NCBI GenBank assembly: GCA_016845305.1
Contig: JAERSW010000070.1
Span: 1-64,000, forward strand
From: Acidimicrobiales bacterium
Lineage (GTDB): Bacteria > Actinomycetota > Acidimicrobiia > Acidimicrobiales > MedAcidi-G1
Length of the DNA: 64,000 nt
Direction: 5' to 3'
Shown piece by piece: positions 1 to 14,805 of this stretch (the stretch's first letter is position 1; every line of letters begins with the position of its first letter). A program made the translations under genes and the position numbers. A model generated the notes under the pieces. It made no database searches. It was not told the origin of the DNA and saw only the letters and a list, made by a program, of their open reading frames with translations.

Positions 1-836
1 AGGCCCCAGGCCGTCGCGTTGCGGGTCGTCTCGTTCCCGGCCACGCACAGCAGCACGAAGAACGACGCCAGCTCGTCCTCGGTGAGCCGCTCGCCCTCCA
101 TCTCCGCGTTGACCAGGACGCTGGTCAGGTCCTCGCCGTCGCCGCCACGGCGCAGCTCCGCGGTCTCGTGCATGATGGCCGCCAGCCCGGCCCCGGCGGC
201 GAGGAACGCGGTCAGCGGGTCGGTTCCCTCGGGCACGTACTCGGGGTCCCCCTGGCTGAGCACGATGTTCGACAGCTCGAAGACCTCGTCGCGCCGGTCG
301 GGTTCGATGCCCATCAGGTCGCAGATGATGGCCAGCGGCAGCCGGGCGGCCACGTCGACCACGAAGTCGCAGGCCCCCCCGGCGGCCGCAGCGTCGACGA
401 TGGACGTGGCCATGGCGTCGATCCCGGCATCCAGCTCGTGCATCATCCGCGGCGTGAAACCGGCCGACACCAGGCGACGCAGTCGGGCGTGCCGCGGATC
501 GTCCAGGTTGATCATCGACCCGAAGAACTCGAGGAACTCCGGCGGCAGGTCGGGGACGTTGGTGCCCCGACCCGAACAGAAGTCGGCCGGACGGCGACTC
601 GCCTCGACCACGTCGGTGTGGCGGGTCAGCGCCCAGTAGCCGGGACCCGGCGGCAGGCCCTCGATCTCCCCTTCGGCGAAGAAACGGATGGGGTCGTGTC
701 GGCGCAGCGCGGTGAACGCCTCGTACCGGTCCGCCATCGGCCGGGTCCAGAAGTCGTCCACCGACGAGAGGTCGACGTCGTCGAGCAGTGCGGGCCCGGA
801 GGTCGAGCCGGTCGAGTCGTCCATGGGGTCGCCCAT
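1..836 (-). CDS. Cytochrome P450, C-terminal part beyond the left edge
   Basis: Heme monooxygenase, cut by the window edge after about 278 residues. Visible are the C-helix stretch LDDPRHARLRRLVSAGF (about 111-127) and the I-helix oxygen-activation motif AGNETTRNA (about 266-274). The ExxR and heme-cysteine regions lie outside. The sequence style resembles the actinobacterial CYP124/125/142 group, which hydroxylate terminal carbons of sterol side chains and branched lipids; that substrate is inference. The first ATG (836) is chosen because a TACGGT box lies 8 nt upstream; ATG 824 is the alternative. Divergent from a SnoaL-like gene, next to SDR and CoA-transferase genes that fit lipid degradation. 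Confidence 0.9.
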   Translation of the reverse strand, partial: MGDPMDDSTGSTSGPALLDDVDLSSVDDFWTRPMADRYEAFTALRRHDPIRFFAEGEIEGLPPGPGYWALTRHTDVVEASRRPADFCSGRGTNVPDLPPEFLEFFGSMINLDDPRHARLRRLVSAGFTPRMMHELDAGIDAMATSIVDAAAAGGACDFVVDVAARLPLAIICDLMGIEPDRRDEVFELSNIVLSQGDPEYVPEGTDPLTAFLAAGAGLAAIMHETAELRRGGDGEDLTSVLVNAEMEGERLTEDELASFFVLLCVAGNETTRNATAWG

Positions 837-10235: not shown

Positions 10236-10349
10236 CCCCAGACCGGATACGTCCCCACGATGACCGTCGGGTAGCAACACAGGCGCCGGACCCGCCGAGG
10301 CACCACGGACGACATGGCACCCGGTTCCACCGGCTGGCAGAGTGCCCGG

Positions 10350-11375
10350 GTGAGCGATGCCGCCTCCTCCCGCCCCTCCCCCGACGGGCCCTTCTTCGAG
10401 GAACTCGCCGTCGGGCAGGTCCTCGACCCGGCACCGGCGGTGACCATCGGTCCCGGTGAGGCCGCCGCCTATCAGGCCATCTGCGGCGACCCCCTGGCCA
10501 CCTCGCTGAGCCGGCCGCTGGCCGAAGCGGTCACCGGCCGGCCGGGAGCACTCGTCAACCCGGCGTTGGTGCTGCACATCTCGATCGGCCAGAGCACGGT
10601 GGCCACCCGCCAGGTCATCGCCAACCTCTTCTACCGGGGCGTGGCACTCCACCGACCCGTCCGCCTCGGCGAGACCCTCCGTAGCACGGTCACCATCCGG
10701 GGCCTGCGCGAGCTCAGCCGCCGGGAGGACCGACCCGCCCGCGGCCTCGTCCTGCTCGGGATCCACACCACCTGCCTCGACGACGGAGCCACGGTGGCCG
10801 ACTACGAGCGGTGCGCCATGCTCCGATTCCGCGATCCGGAGGCCACCACCGGGCACGACGACGACCTCGGCGGCGCCGAGCCCGACATCGACCTCGACGC
10901 CTGGGCCGACCTGGCCCCCGACTGGGACGCGGCGCCGCTCCGACCCGCTCGGCCGGTCGACCCGCCCGACGGCGAGCGCCGCACCGACCCGCTGCGCGAC
11001 ACCGTGACGAGCGCCCCGGAGCTGGCCCGTCTCAGCCAGAACCTCGCCGCCGTGCACCGCGACCGGACCCTCGGACCCGGCGGACGACGCCTCGTCTACG
11101 GCGGCCACACCATCGGCCTGGCCCAGGCGTCGCTCTGCCGCCTGTTTCCCGACACCGGCACGATCCTCGGCTGGCAGTCCTGCGACCACCCGGCCCCCGT
11201 CTTCGAGGACGACGTGCTGTCCTTCCACCACACCGTGCTCGAGGAACGGATGCTGGACGAGCGGCCCTCCGGCTCGGGTCGGCTGCGTGCCGTCCGCGTC
11301 GAGGTCGACGCCGAGCGCGCCGACGGTTCGACGGACGCCGTGCTGGACTGGCGCCTCGTCTCCTGGGGGGCCTGA
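10350..11375 (+). CDS. MaoC-like double-hotdog hydratase, mesaconyl-CoA hydratase-like
   Basis: The fold begins at FFEELAVGQVLDPAP. The second hotdog domain carries RRLVYGGHTIGLAQASL, which aligns by eye with the catalytic segment RIVYGGHIISLARSL recalled from Chloroflexus mesaconyl-C1-CoA hydratase (Mch); overall length (341 residues) also fits. Mch interconverts mesaconyl-C1-CoA and beta-methylmalyl-CoA. The convergent neighbour resembles the partner enzyme Mct, which strengthens the call. GTG 10350 is preferred because it leaves a short N-terminus and has CAGAGT 6 nt upstream; ATG 10314 is the alternative. Confidence 0.7.
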   Translation: MSDAASSRPSPDGPFFEELAVGQVLDPAPAVTIGPGEAAAYQAICGDPLATSLSRPLAEAVTGRPGALVNPALVLHISIGQSTVATRQVIANLFYRGVALHRPVRLGETLRSTVTIRGLRELSRREDRPARGLVLLGIHTTCLDDGATVADYERCAMLRFRDPEATTGHDDDLGGAEPDIDLDAWADLAPDWDAAPLRPARPVDPPDGERRTDPLRDTVTSAPELARLSQNLAAVHRDRTLGPGGRRLVYGGHTIGLAQASLCRLFPDTGTILGWQSCDHPAPVFEDDVLSFHHTVLEERMLDERPSGSGRLRAVRVEVDAERADGSTDAVLDWRLVSWGA

Positions 11376-11396: not shown

Positions 11397-12620
11397 TCAG
11401 GCCGAGGCCACCGCCACGGCACCCCGGTCCACGAGCGCCCCGAAGGCCGCCGCCGAGATCCCCAGGTCGCCCACCAGGACCTCCTCCGTGTGCTGTCCGA
11501 GCAGCGGCGCGGTCGCTGCGGCGCGGTCGGTACCGGCCGAGGCGAAAGCCAGTGGCGAGCCGGGCACCAGGTGGCGGCCCACGCCCGGCTGGTCCAGTTC
11601 GGCGAACAGCGGGTTGGCCACCGAGCAGCGGGGATCCTCGTCCACCATCTCGGCCACCGTGCGGTACGGGCCCCAGCAGACGCCGTGGGCATCGAGGCCC
11701 GCGGCCACCTCGGCCAGCGTGCGGGCCGCGAACCACGGGGCGAAGACCTCGCACAGGCGGTCGGTGGCCAGGTACCGCTCGCCCTCGTCGGCGAAGTCGA
11801 CGCCCAGCTCGTCGGCCAGGGCGGCCACCTCGTCGGCCGTGCCGGTGGCCGCCTGCAGGCCCCGCCACTGCTTGGGGCTGATGGCCACCACCATGGTCCG
11901 CCGCCCGTCGCCGGTGGTGAAGTCCCGGCCGAACGCCCCGTAGATGGCGTTGCCCACCCGGTCGCGCACCTCGCCGTTGACCTGCGCCTCGGCGAGGTTG
12001 CCGAGCGCACCCACGGTGGCCAGCGCCACGTCGGCCAGGGCGATGGTGATGACCTCGCCGCCGCCGCCGAGCAGGCGCCGGCGATCCGCGGCCAGCAGCC
12101 CCACGGCGGCCATCTGCCCGCACACCAGGTCCCAGGCCGGGACCACGTTGTTGACCGGCCGGGGGTCGTCCGGGTGGCCGGTCATGTCGGGGTAGCCGAC
12201 GGCGCAGTTCACCGTGTAGTCCAGCGCCGTGGTGCCGTCGTGGCTGCCGGTGACCACCACCATGACGAGGTCGTCGCGCCGCTCCCGCAGGCGTTCGGGA
12301 TCCATCCAGCCCGCGGCCGGGAAGTTGGTCAGGAAGTTGCCGGCGTCGACGACCAACTCGGTGAGCAGGTCCTGGACCTCGGGATCGCGGAGGTCGACGG
12401 CCACCGACCGCTTGCCGCGGTTCAGGCCGTTCCAGTAGAGGCTGACCCCGTCCTCGGTGAGCGGCCAGCGACGGTGGTCGATGCCGCCGCCGACCTGATC
12501 GAAGCGGACGACGTCGGCGCCCAACTGGGCCAGGGTCATCCCGCCGGAGGGCGCGGCCACGAAGGCCGTCCCCTCGACGACCCGCAGGCCGTCCAGTGGC
12601 CGCTCCGACCCGCCGGTCAT
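11397..12620 (-). CDS. mct: Mesaconyl-CoA C1-C4 CoA-transferase-like protein
   Basis: Type III CoA-transferase of about 407 residues. Segments LRVVEGTAFVAAPSGGMTL, AQLGADVVRFDQVGGGID, NGLNRGKRSVAVDLR and PAWDLVCGQMAAVGLLAA closely match what I recall of Chloroflexus Mct, which moves CoA from C1 to C4 of mesaconate in the 3-hydroxypropionate bicycle. This is a recollection, not an alignment. ATG 12620 is preferred over GTG 12632 because GGTGGGG precedes it. The Mch-like hydratase is convergent at 11375, and the selenoprotein gene lies directly upstream, close enough for co-transcription. Confidence 0.75.
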   Translation of the reverse strand: MTGGSERPLDGLRVVEGTAFVAAPSGGMTLAQLGADVVRFDQVGGGIDHRRWPLTEDGVSLYWNGLNRGKRSVAVDLRDPEVQDLLTELVVDAGNFLTNFPAAGWMDPERLRERRDDLVMVVVTGSHDGTTALDYTVNCAVGYPDMTGHPDDPRPVNNVVPAWDLVCGQMAAVGLLAADRRRLLGGGGEVITIALADVALATVGALGNLAEAQVNGEVRDRVGNAIYGAFGRDFTTGDGRRTMVVAISPKQWRGLQAATGTADEVAALADELGVDFADEGERYLATDRLCEVFAPWFAARTLAEVAAGLDAHGVCWGPYRTVAEMVDEDPRCSVANPLFAELDQPGVGRHLVPGSPLAFASAGTDRAAATAPLLGQHTEEVLVGDLGISAAAFGALVDRGAVAVASA

Positions 12621-12642
12621 CGGGGACCCCACCGCCGACGGC

Positions 12643-13101
12643 TCAGGCCGCCGACAGCTCCCGGATGTCGTCGAGGACCACCTGGGCGTGGGCCTCGAGG
12701 TCCTCGCCGGCCAGGTCGTAGGCCCGCGCGATGGTCCCCTCGGGATCGATCAGGTAGGTGATGCGACGCGGCCAGGGCTTCTCCTCCTGCTCGGCCCCGT
12801 AGGCCCGGCCCATTTCCTTCGTGGTGTCGGCCAGCAGCCGGTACGGAAAGCCCTGGTCGTCGGCGAAGTGCTTCTGCGCCTCGACGTCGTCGAAGCTGGC
12901 GCCCACGATGACGGCGCCGGCCTCGCTGTAGTCCGGGGTTCGGTCACGGAACCCCCCGCCCTGGATCGTTCAACCGGGGGTCGATGCGATCGGATACCAC
13001 CACAGCGCCACCCAGTGGCCGCGCAGGCTGTCGAGGGTGACGACCTCGCCGTCCTGGTCGGGAACGGCGAAGTCGGGTGCGGGGGTTCCCGGTTCGAGCA
13101 T
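12643..13101 (-). CDS. Peroxiredoxin (AhpC/TSA, BCP-like) with in-frame TGA: probable selenoprotein
   Basis: Read through one TGA, this is a complete 152-residue thiol peroxidase. MLEPGTPAPDFAVPD opens the thioredoxin fold, and WWYPIASTPG runs to position 43. TGA (12972-12970) is codon 44, exactly where TPGC carries the peroxidatic cysteine, and the frame continues TIQGGGFRDRTPDYSEAG and then VGASFDDVEAQKHFADD, FPYRLLADTTKEMGRAYG and PRRITYLIDPEGTIA to a normal C-terminus. No cysteine occurs anywhere in the chain, and the usual resolving position (TPGCTxxxC) is glycine. A SECIS-like hairpin lies at the right distance. AGGAGA, 9 nt before ATG 13101, is the Shine-Dalgarno sequence. A nonsense mutation cannot be excluded without finding selA/B/C/D in the genome. 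Confidence 0.85.
12935..12955 (-). promoter_or_regulatory. SECIS-like hairpin downstream of the in-frame TGA
   Basis: On the minus strand GGGGTTC CGTGACC GAACCCC forms a 7-bp perfect stem with a 7-nt loop. The loop starts 22 nt after the TGA and has G as its second base. Both agree with the published bacterial SECIS model (apical loop about 16-37 nt after UGA, G in the first two loop positions). It lies within the coding sequence, as bacterial SECIS elements do. Confidence 0.7.
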
Positions 13102-13236
13102 CGGTGGCGGTCTCCTGGGTCCGGATCCTGGTGGTCGAGGACGCGGGTCCGCCGGGCCGGTGCCTCTCCGCTCAGGATGGCCGGTGGAGGCCGCCGGGGC
13201 CAACCCCTGCCACCGGAGCTCTCGAAGCGACGGGCC

Positions 13237-14709
13237 TCAGGCCAGCCAGGAGATGGCCTGCACCTCGCTGTAGGCCTCCAGGCCGGCCACGCCGCGGTCC
13301 CGACCGACGCCCGACAGCTTGAAGCCCCCGAACGGGGCATCGGTGTGGAGGAGCACGCTGTTCAGGGCCACGCTCCCCGACCGGATCCGTCCGGCGATCC
13401 GCAGGGCCCGGGCGTTGTCGCCGCTGTACACGTAACTGGCCAGGCCATAGTGCGAGTCGTTGGCCAACGCCACCGCCTCGTCATCGTCGTCGTGGGCCAG
13501 CACCACCACCACGGGGCCGAACGCCTCCTCGCGCACGGCGTGCATGTCGGCCGTGCAGTCGGCCAGCAGGGTCGGCGCCACGAAGTAGCCCGGCAGGTCC
13601 GGGCGCTCGCCGCCGCACACCAGGGTTGCGCCGGCGTCGACCCCGCCCCGGACGAACGCCTCGACGCTGTCGCGCTGCTGCTCGCTGACCAGCGGCCCGA
13701 CCAGGGTGTCGCGTTCGGTGGCGTCGCCCACCTTGAGCATCCCGGCCACCGCGGTGAGGTTGCCCACCAGCTCGTCGACCCTGCTGCGGTGGCAGATGAC
13801 CCGGGTGGGGGCGGTACAGATCTGGCCGCTGTGGAAGCCCCACACGCTGGCGATGGCGCCCACCGCCTTGCCGAGGTCGGCGTCGTCGGTCACCACCATG
13901 GCGCCCTTGCCACCCAGCTCCATGAGGACGCGGGTCATGGTCGGCGCCCCGTCCGACATGATCCGAGCGCCCACCGACGAGGATCCGGTGAAGCTCACCA
14001 TGTGCACGTCGGGCGAGGCGATGAGCGCCGACGGAGCCTCGGTGCCGGCCGAGGTGAGGATGTTCACCACGCCTGGCGGGAAGCCCGCCTCGACCACGGC
14101 CTCGCCGAGGCGGAGCACGGCCAGGGGGTCCTGGGGGGCGGGCTTGATGATGCAGGTGTTGCCCATGGCCAGCGCCGGAGCCAGCTTCCCGGCCACGTTG
14201 ACCAGGGGGAAGTTGTACGAGGTGATACAGGCCACCACGCCGACGGGGCGGCGGTAGACGGCGGCGCCCACCAGGCCGGCCGGACCGAGGGCCGACGCCG
14301 CGGCGGTCGCCGGCATCTCGGCCCGGTCGAGGTTCCGGGGGATGGCGTACTGGGCGTAGCGGTCGGCCAGGTTGGGCCCGACCTGCATGGTCTCGGCCAC
14401 GTTGATGGTGGCGCCCGTCTCGGCCTGGACCAGCGGCGCCCACGTCGGGGCCTGCGCCCGGAGGACGTCGGCGAGGCGCTGGAGCATGGCGCCCCGCTCG
14501 GCCGGTGGGGTGGCCGCCCAGCCGGGCAGCGCCGCATTGGCCGCGGCGATGGCGGCCTCGGCGTCGGCCACCGTGCCGTCGGGAGCGTGGCCCACCACCT
14601 GCGTGGTGTTGGGGTCCACGATCTCGTAGGTCGACGCGGTGGCCGTCCACTCGCCGCCGATCAGGAGGCGCCACTCCTCCTGCGGGTCGATGGTCCTGGC
14701 GTCGCCCAT
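13237..14709 (-). CDS. NAD(P)-dependent aldehyde dehydrogenase
   Basis: Oxidises an aldehyde to the acid. The 490-residue protein has the cofactor region TSYNFPLVNVAGKLAPALAM, the general-base glutamate in LMELGGKGAMVV, the catalytic cysteine in FHSGQICTAPTRV and the C-terminal FGGFKLSGVGRDRG. It resembles the benzaldehyde/vanillin dehydrogenase side of the family, but the substrate is not decided. ATG 14709 is chosen because GGGAGG lies 9 nt upstream. An inverted repeat (14734-14752) lies in the divergent region shared with the amidohydrolase at 14820. The 135 bases down to the peroxiredoxin show no gene. Confidence 0.92.
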   Translation of the reverse strand: MGDARTIDPQEEWRLLIGGEWTATASTYEIVDPNTTQVVGHAPDGTVADAEAAIAAANAALPGWAATPPAERGAMLQRLADVLRAQAPTWAPLVQAETGATINVAETMQVGPNLADRYAQYAIPRNLDRAEMPATAAASALGPAGLVGAAVYRRPVGVVACITSYNFPLVNVAGKLAPALAMGNTCIIKPAPQDPLAVLRLGEAVVEAGFPPGVVNILTSAGTEAPSALIASPDVHMVSFTGSSSVGARIMSDGAPTMTRVLMELGGKGAMVVTDDADLGKAVGAIASVWGFHSGQICTAPTRVICHRSRVDELVGNLTAVAGMLKVGDATERDTLVGPLVSEQQRDSVEAFVRGGVDAGATLVCGGERPDLPGYFVAPTLLADCTADMHAVREEAFGPVVVVLAHDDDDEAVALANDSHYGLASYVYSGDNARALRIAGRIRSGSVALNSVLLHTDAPFGGFKLSGVGRDRGVAGLEAYSEVQAISWLA

Positions 14710-14733
14710 GTGCTGGTGTCCTCCCGGCGGCCC

Positions 14734-14752
14734 ACCTGACGCCCCGTCAGGT
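14734..14752. promoter_or_regulatory. Inverted repeat, putative TetR-type operator
   Basis: ACCTGACG CCC CGTCAGGT has perfect 8-bp arms around a 3-bp centre, extendable as CCCAC/GTGGG with one bulge. It lies between the divergent aldehyde dehydrogenase and amidohydrolase genes. Size and symmetry fit a dimeric repressor site; no regulator gene is adjacent. Confidence 0.55.
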
Positions 14753-14805
14753 CGTGGGCCGATCGTACCGACGGGCCCCGTGCGGTCCCCCACCGGCACG
14801 GTCAC

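Follow-up and report, generated by a model that had tools for sequence, protein, structure and literature searches.

The minus-strand gene at 12646..13101 of the window (the whole 64,000-nucleotide stretch of DNA analysed) almost certainly encodes a selenocysteine (Sec) peroxiredoxin (Prx) of the BCP/PrxQ subfamily, with UGA at codon 44 predicted to be decoded as Sec via SelB, tRNA-Sec and a 3′ hairpin. We regard the selenoprotein as real because the genome contains the full Sec machinery and the same gene occurs in relatives across the order. The reading frame (minus strand, 13101 down to 12643) consists of an ATG start, 43 codons, TGA, 108 codons and a terminal TGA, giving 152 codons when codon 44 is read as Sec. 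Its single in-frame TGA (Sec44, 12970..12972, read as 12972..12970) is located at the peroxidatic site of the PxxxTxxC motif, here P37-xxx-T41-xx-U44. The read-through product is MLEPGTPAPDFAVPDQDG...WWYPIASTPG-U-TIQGGGFRDR...RRITYLIDPEG.... A Shine-Dalgarno sequence, AGGAG, was read directly at 13112..13116, 10 nucleotides before the ATG, and the true stop codon is the TGA at 12643..12645, where relatives end with TGA, TAG or TAA. The Pfam family AhpC-TSA (PF00578) covers residues 4-125 of the read-through product (114 bits, cut-off 26). An earlier note on this DNA had described, with the strand unstated, a peroxiredoxin frame with a single TGA at codon 44, a normal Shine-Dalgarno sequence and stop, and peroxiredoxin-like sequence on both sides of the TGA, and had read the TGA as Sec. 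This description is borne out at each of these points, and the Sec reading is now supported by the Sec machinery, by homologues with TGA, by purifying selection and by the hairpin.

The closest relatives of known structure, by sequence, are bacterioferritin comigratory proteins (BCP peroxidases), and the window gene is the sole BCP-type match in its own genome at E values up to 0.001. Cys-type BCP/PrxQ proteins (NF006960 and NF053650; PDB 5iph and 3gkn) share with the window Prx the family, the PxxxTxxC motif and an arginine before a T/S-Y/F-L-I strand, but position 44 is Cys in them and a resolving Cys usually follows at +5, whereas the window Prx has Sec44 and Gly at +5. The window Prx scores below the cut-offs of the curated BCP/PrxQ equivalogs (88.1 of 140 for NF006960 and 85.3 of 260 for NF053650) and is BCP-like, outside the curated Cys equivalog. 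It also scores below the cut-off of the PrxU model NF040737 (41.5 of 270), which at 233 positions is longer than the window Prx.

The genome of origin (2.92 Mb in 136 contigs, 98% complete) was searched for selA, selB, selC (tRNA-Sec) and selD, the check that the earlier note had proposed, and all four are present. One tRNA-Sec scores above the Rfam cut-off (67.5 bits versus 47) and is also called as tRNA-SeC by ARAGORN. SelB (269 bits) directly follows SelA (379 bits) on the same contig as the tRNA-Sec, and SelD (353 bits) is located away from it, on contig C121. The SelD frame itself contains a TGA, within GAGUGCK, at a position where SelD is known to carry Sec. The formate dehydrogenase subunit FdhA has a TGA within SCNRTUHAPSV, which we take to be its usual Sec site. 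Given SelA, SelB, SelD and tRNA-Sec together with a Sec-type SelD and FdhA, decoding of UGA as Sec is therefore expected to be active, and the genome is expected from its sequence to encode at least three selenoproteins, namely Prx, SelD and FdhA. A sequence GGUCU lies about 21 nucleotides downstream of the FdhA UGA (contig C110), and further Fdh-alpha pieces with TGA were matched at C110:24861 and C61:2435. A search of the genome with our SECIS model, which is too sequence-specific for the SECIS of SelD or FdhA, returned the Prx gene only, and an Rfam search of the three loci tested returned nothing beyond tRNA-Sec.

It is also evident that the TGA is kept in homologues. Among the 298 genomes of the order, 54 (the genome of origin included) have a homologue with an in-frame TGA at an identity of at least 41%. 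When genome contigs were scanned, matches came from 14 Actinomycetota records (nearly all of them MAGs labelled Acidimicrobiales, Acidimicrobiaceae or Acidimicrobiia) and from one Myxococcales MAG, with TGA in all of them, and other families of the phylum supplied six additional TGA-bearing homologues. When the sequences were read (identity above 39%), the codon in question proved to be TGA in 68 distinct homologues. In those without TGA, it is TGC or TGT in 19 and TCA in one, a paralogue in which Ser takes the place of Sec and the active-site motif is degenerate. The nonsynonymous rate is lower than the synonymous rate (dN < dS) both before and after the TGA in 12 of 12 comparisons against the window gene. 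Several of these comparisons show a drop in dS from the 5′ to the 3′ side of the TGA, the effect expected of an RNA element that overlaps the coding sequence.

Such an element is apparent in the form of a covarying hairpin that begins 15 nucleotides past the UGA, a feature beyond the scope of the earlier note. In the window, the SECIS-like hairpin occupies 12936..12954 on the minus strand, with UGA+18..23 paired to +31..36 (U of UGA = 0) around the loop CGUGACC, and the hairpin model matches at 12928-12972 with 62.6 bits. Among 33 diverse sequences, the six-pair stem with the loop CGUGAyC is paired in 99% of cells, and three pairs have changed on both sides (16 cells versus 0.9 in shuffles); slid versions of the hairpin are paired at most 60%. 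Forms with a 5- or 6-nucleotide loop retain the conserved CGUGA. Nearly all Sec forms (67 of 68) use CGT for the Arg in the loop, whereas CGT accounts for 41 of 444 Arg codons (9%) elsewhere in the same genes; these sequences are related and not independent trials, and the shift runs against the codon bias of these genes. The corresponding Arg codon is CGT in none of the 19 Cys homologues, which use CGC, CGG or CGA. The Prx gene thus has what characterizes a bacterial SECIS, a hairpin directly downstream of the UGA with G/GU in its apical loop. In one genome (G126) the Sec codon is TGC and the hairpin is absent, and its gene clusters phylogenetically with TGA-bearing genes from its own family; judged from these sequences, it is probably a natural Sec-to-Cys reversal.

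The same data bear on other explanations of the TGA. The sequence comes from a MAG assembly and TGC becomes TGA by one change, so that a pseudogene or a sequencing or assembly error might be suspected. However, dozens of separately assembled genomes share the TGA, synteny is conserved in named Acidimicrobiales MAGs, dN is lower than dS on both sides, and both the Sec machinery and the SECIS are present; the orthologues refute this explanation, and we consider its probability negligible. The earlier note had named TGC at 12970-12972 in close relatives, or further inactivating mutations, as signs against the Sec reading. Close relatives keep TGA there, and no further inactivating mutations are seen in the gene. 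It is highly improbable, too, that UGA is read without Sec machinery, by near-cognate read-through or because UGA has been reassigned throughout the genome to another residue such as Trp or Gly. SelA and SelB went undetected in four genomes that have the TGA gene, which could speak for such a reading, but tRNA-Sec is present in all four, UGA is a normal terminator of the same Prx gene, the recoded position is exactly that of the catalytic Cys, and a covarying SECIS is present. A mechanical open reading frame at 12643-12906 would allow UGA44 to be a real stop followed by a separate 87-amino-acid product starting from GTG at 12906. That product would be missing the active site and a large part of the fold, and the stretch from UGA to GTG is conserved both as protein and as a hairpin; we consider this explanation as improbable as read-through without Sec machinery.

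A different question is whether the selenoprotein acts as a peroxidase. The conserved synteny with an aldehyde dehydrogenase gene and a CoA-transferase family III gene could point to another role, such as that of a substrate-specific reductase tied to these neighbours. We consider this unlikely, since the Prx active-site set P/T/U/R is retained and the closest solved relatives are BCP peroxidases. In the window Prx this set comprises P37, T41, U44 and R113; among the 68 Sec forms, P is conserved in 65, T in 68 and R, by motif, in 68. The window Prx has no Cys at all and thus lacks the resolving Cys at +5 that marks atypical 2-Cys PrxQ. Similarly, 49 of the 68 Sec forms are cysteine-free, and the +5 Cys is missing in 67 of the 68 Sec forms and present in 15 of the 19 Cys forms. 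From sequence we infer Sec incorporation at residue 44 and peroxidase activity. SelB and tRNA-Sec would decode UGA44 as Sec, under the direction of the hairpin that follows closely within the coding sequence, and Sec44 would be activated by Pro37, Thr41 and Arg113. The selenolate of Sec44 would then react with ROOH (H2O2 or organic hydroperoxides) to give a selenenic acid, which an external thiol would reduce in a 1-Sec cycle. Since the window Prx has no Cys, its selenenic acid would have to be resolved by an outside thiol, and the enzyme should act as a 1-Sec peroxidase that needs an external reductant.

In a quick tree with many open forks, members of the 1-Sec Prx group come from many families of the order and from some other families of the phylum. 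Two further TGA-bearing BCP groups branch separately amid Cys forms, which suggests that Cys and Sec have been exchanged repeatedly. The two members of one group (L070 and L071, family f56) retain the +5 Cys (TPGUTRQAC), with TGA at the same position; the three members of the other (L072, L073 and L075, families f17 and f18) are of BCP type and also have TGA at that position. The Sec-Prx of the Myxococcales MAG, which has the hairpin, lies inside the actinobacterial clade on a long branch, and its presence in a Myxococcota MAG reflects either gene transfer or mis-binning.

The earlier note had held that selenoproteins are rarely reported in this kind of actinobacterium. For the order, this impression of rarity does not hold: Sec machinery is common, with SelA above cut-off in 175 of the 298 genomes. 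SelA is found in 50 of the 54 TGA-Prx genomes versus 135 of the 244 others (P = 3×10−8, Fisher's exact test, kinship ignored). The assemblies of the remaining four (G197, G063, G242 and G261) yielded no SelA and no true SelB. All four have tRNA-Sec and the hairpin and are fragmented MAGs, of which G242 (96% complete) and G261 (94%) belong to one genus. A selAB cluster beside the tRNA-Sec was considered for G242 and G261, but the translated selAB region of the genome of origin matched nothing on those contigs, and the best matches to the selB profile there are open frames of about 406 amino acids, the size of EF-Tu. We provisionally take the missing SelA and SelB to be gaps in fragmented MAGs. 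It is conceivable, at rather low probability, that the adoption of Sec by a large BCP clade of Acidimicrobiia and other Actinomycetota was followed by loss of the resolving Cys, its members becoming 1-Sec and mostly Cys-free, with the gene in G242 and G261 perhaps decoded without recognisable SelA and SelB.

Sec peroxiredoxins of COG1225 (BCP-type) with a TxxU motif have been reported from the Sargasso Sea in 2005 (43 sequences; PMC1088965) and from the GOS data in 2008 (253 sequences; PMC2398784). By word search, the main text of these two papers does not name Actinobacteria. As far as their descriptions go, these proteins resemble the window Prx in COG/Pfam, TxxU position and marine setting; genome context, hosts, the SECIS and the Cys loss are added here. 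Prx is included in a 2026 list of prokaryotic selenoproteins (PMC13188914). As cited there, PrxU of Eubacterium acidaminophilum (Sohling et al. 2001) is a peroxiredoxin whose peroxidatic residue is Sec, as in the window Prx; model NF040737 is linked to that protein by its name. Our search of open-licence literature found no paper on Acidimicrobiia selenoproteins and few passing co-mentions or none. TxxU COG1225 Sec peroxiredoxins from the sea are thus already known and the window Prx extends that kind; what is new is its distribution across the order within Acidimicrobiia, the SECIS that its members have in common and their loss of the resolving Cys. Marine and other Acidimicrobiia frequently encode Sec machinery, and in many of them the Sec enzyme serves as their BCP-type peroxiredoxin. 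Ordinary gene calling would halt at codon 43, and the Sec-Prx gene is therefore prone to misannotation. Sec forms alongside their nearby Cys counterparts offer a clean comparison for two questions, namely what advantage Sec gives a peroxidase and why the resolving Cys disappeared.

The gene order of aldehyde dehydrogenase (13237..14805, upstream of Prx), Prx and CoA-transferase family III (11397..12632, downstream), all on the minus strand in the window, recurs in close relatives, followed by a MaoC-like gene in convergent orientation. The CoA-transferase III gene starts 10 nucleotides past the Prx stop, a spacing that makes co-transcription of the two genes probable; this neighbourhood is no direct clue to the Prx reductant. 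In a plasmid search, all matches were under 60% identity. The best fit of the CoA-transferase III is 2-methylfumaryl-CoA isomerase (Mct), at 490.7 bits and below the cut-off of 725. A 353-amino-acid MaoC/hydratase-like protein is encoded at 10314-11375 on the plus strand, facing the CoA-transferase III gene, and the pair resembles Mct/Mch of the 3-hydroxypropionate bicycle.
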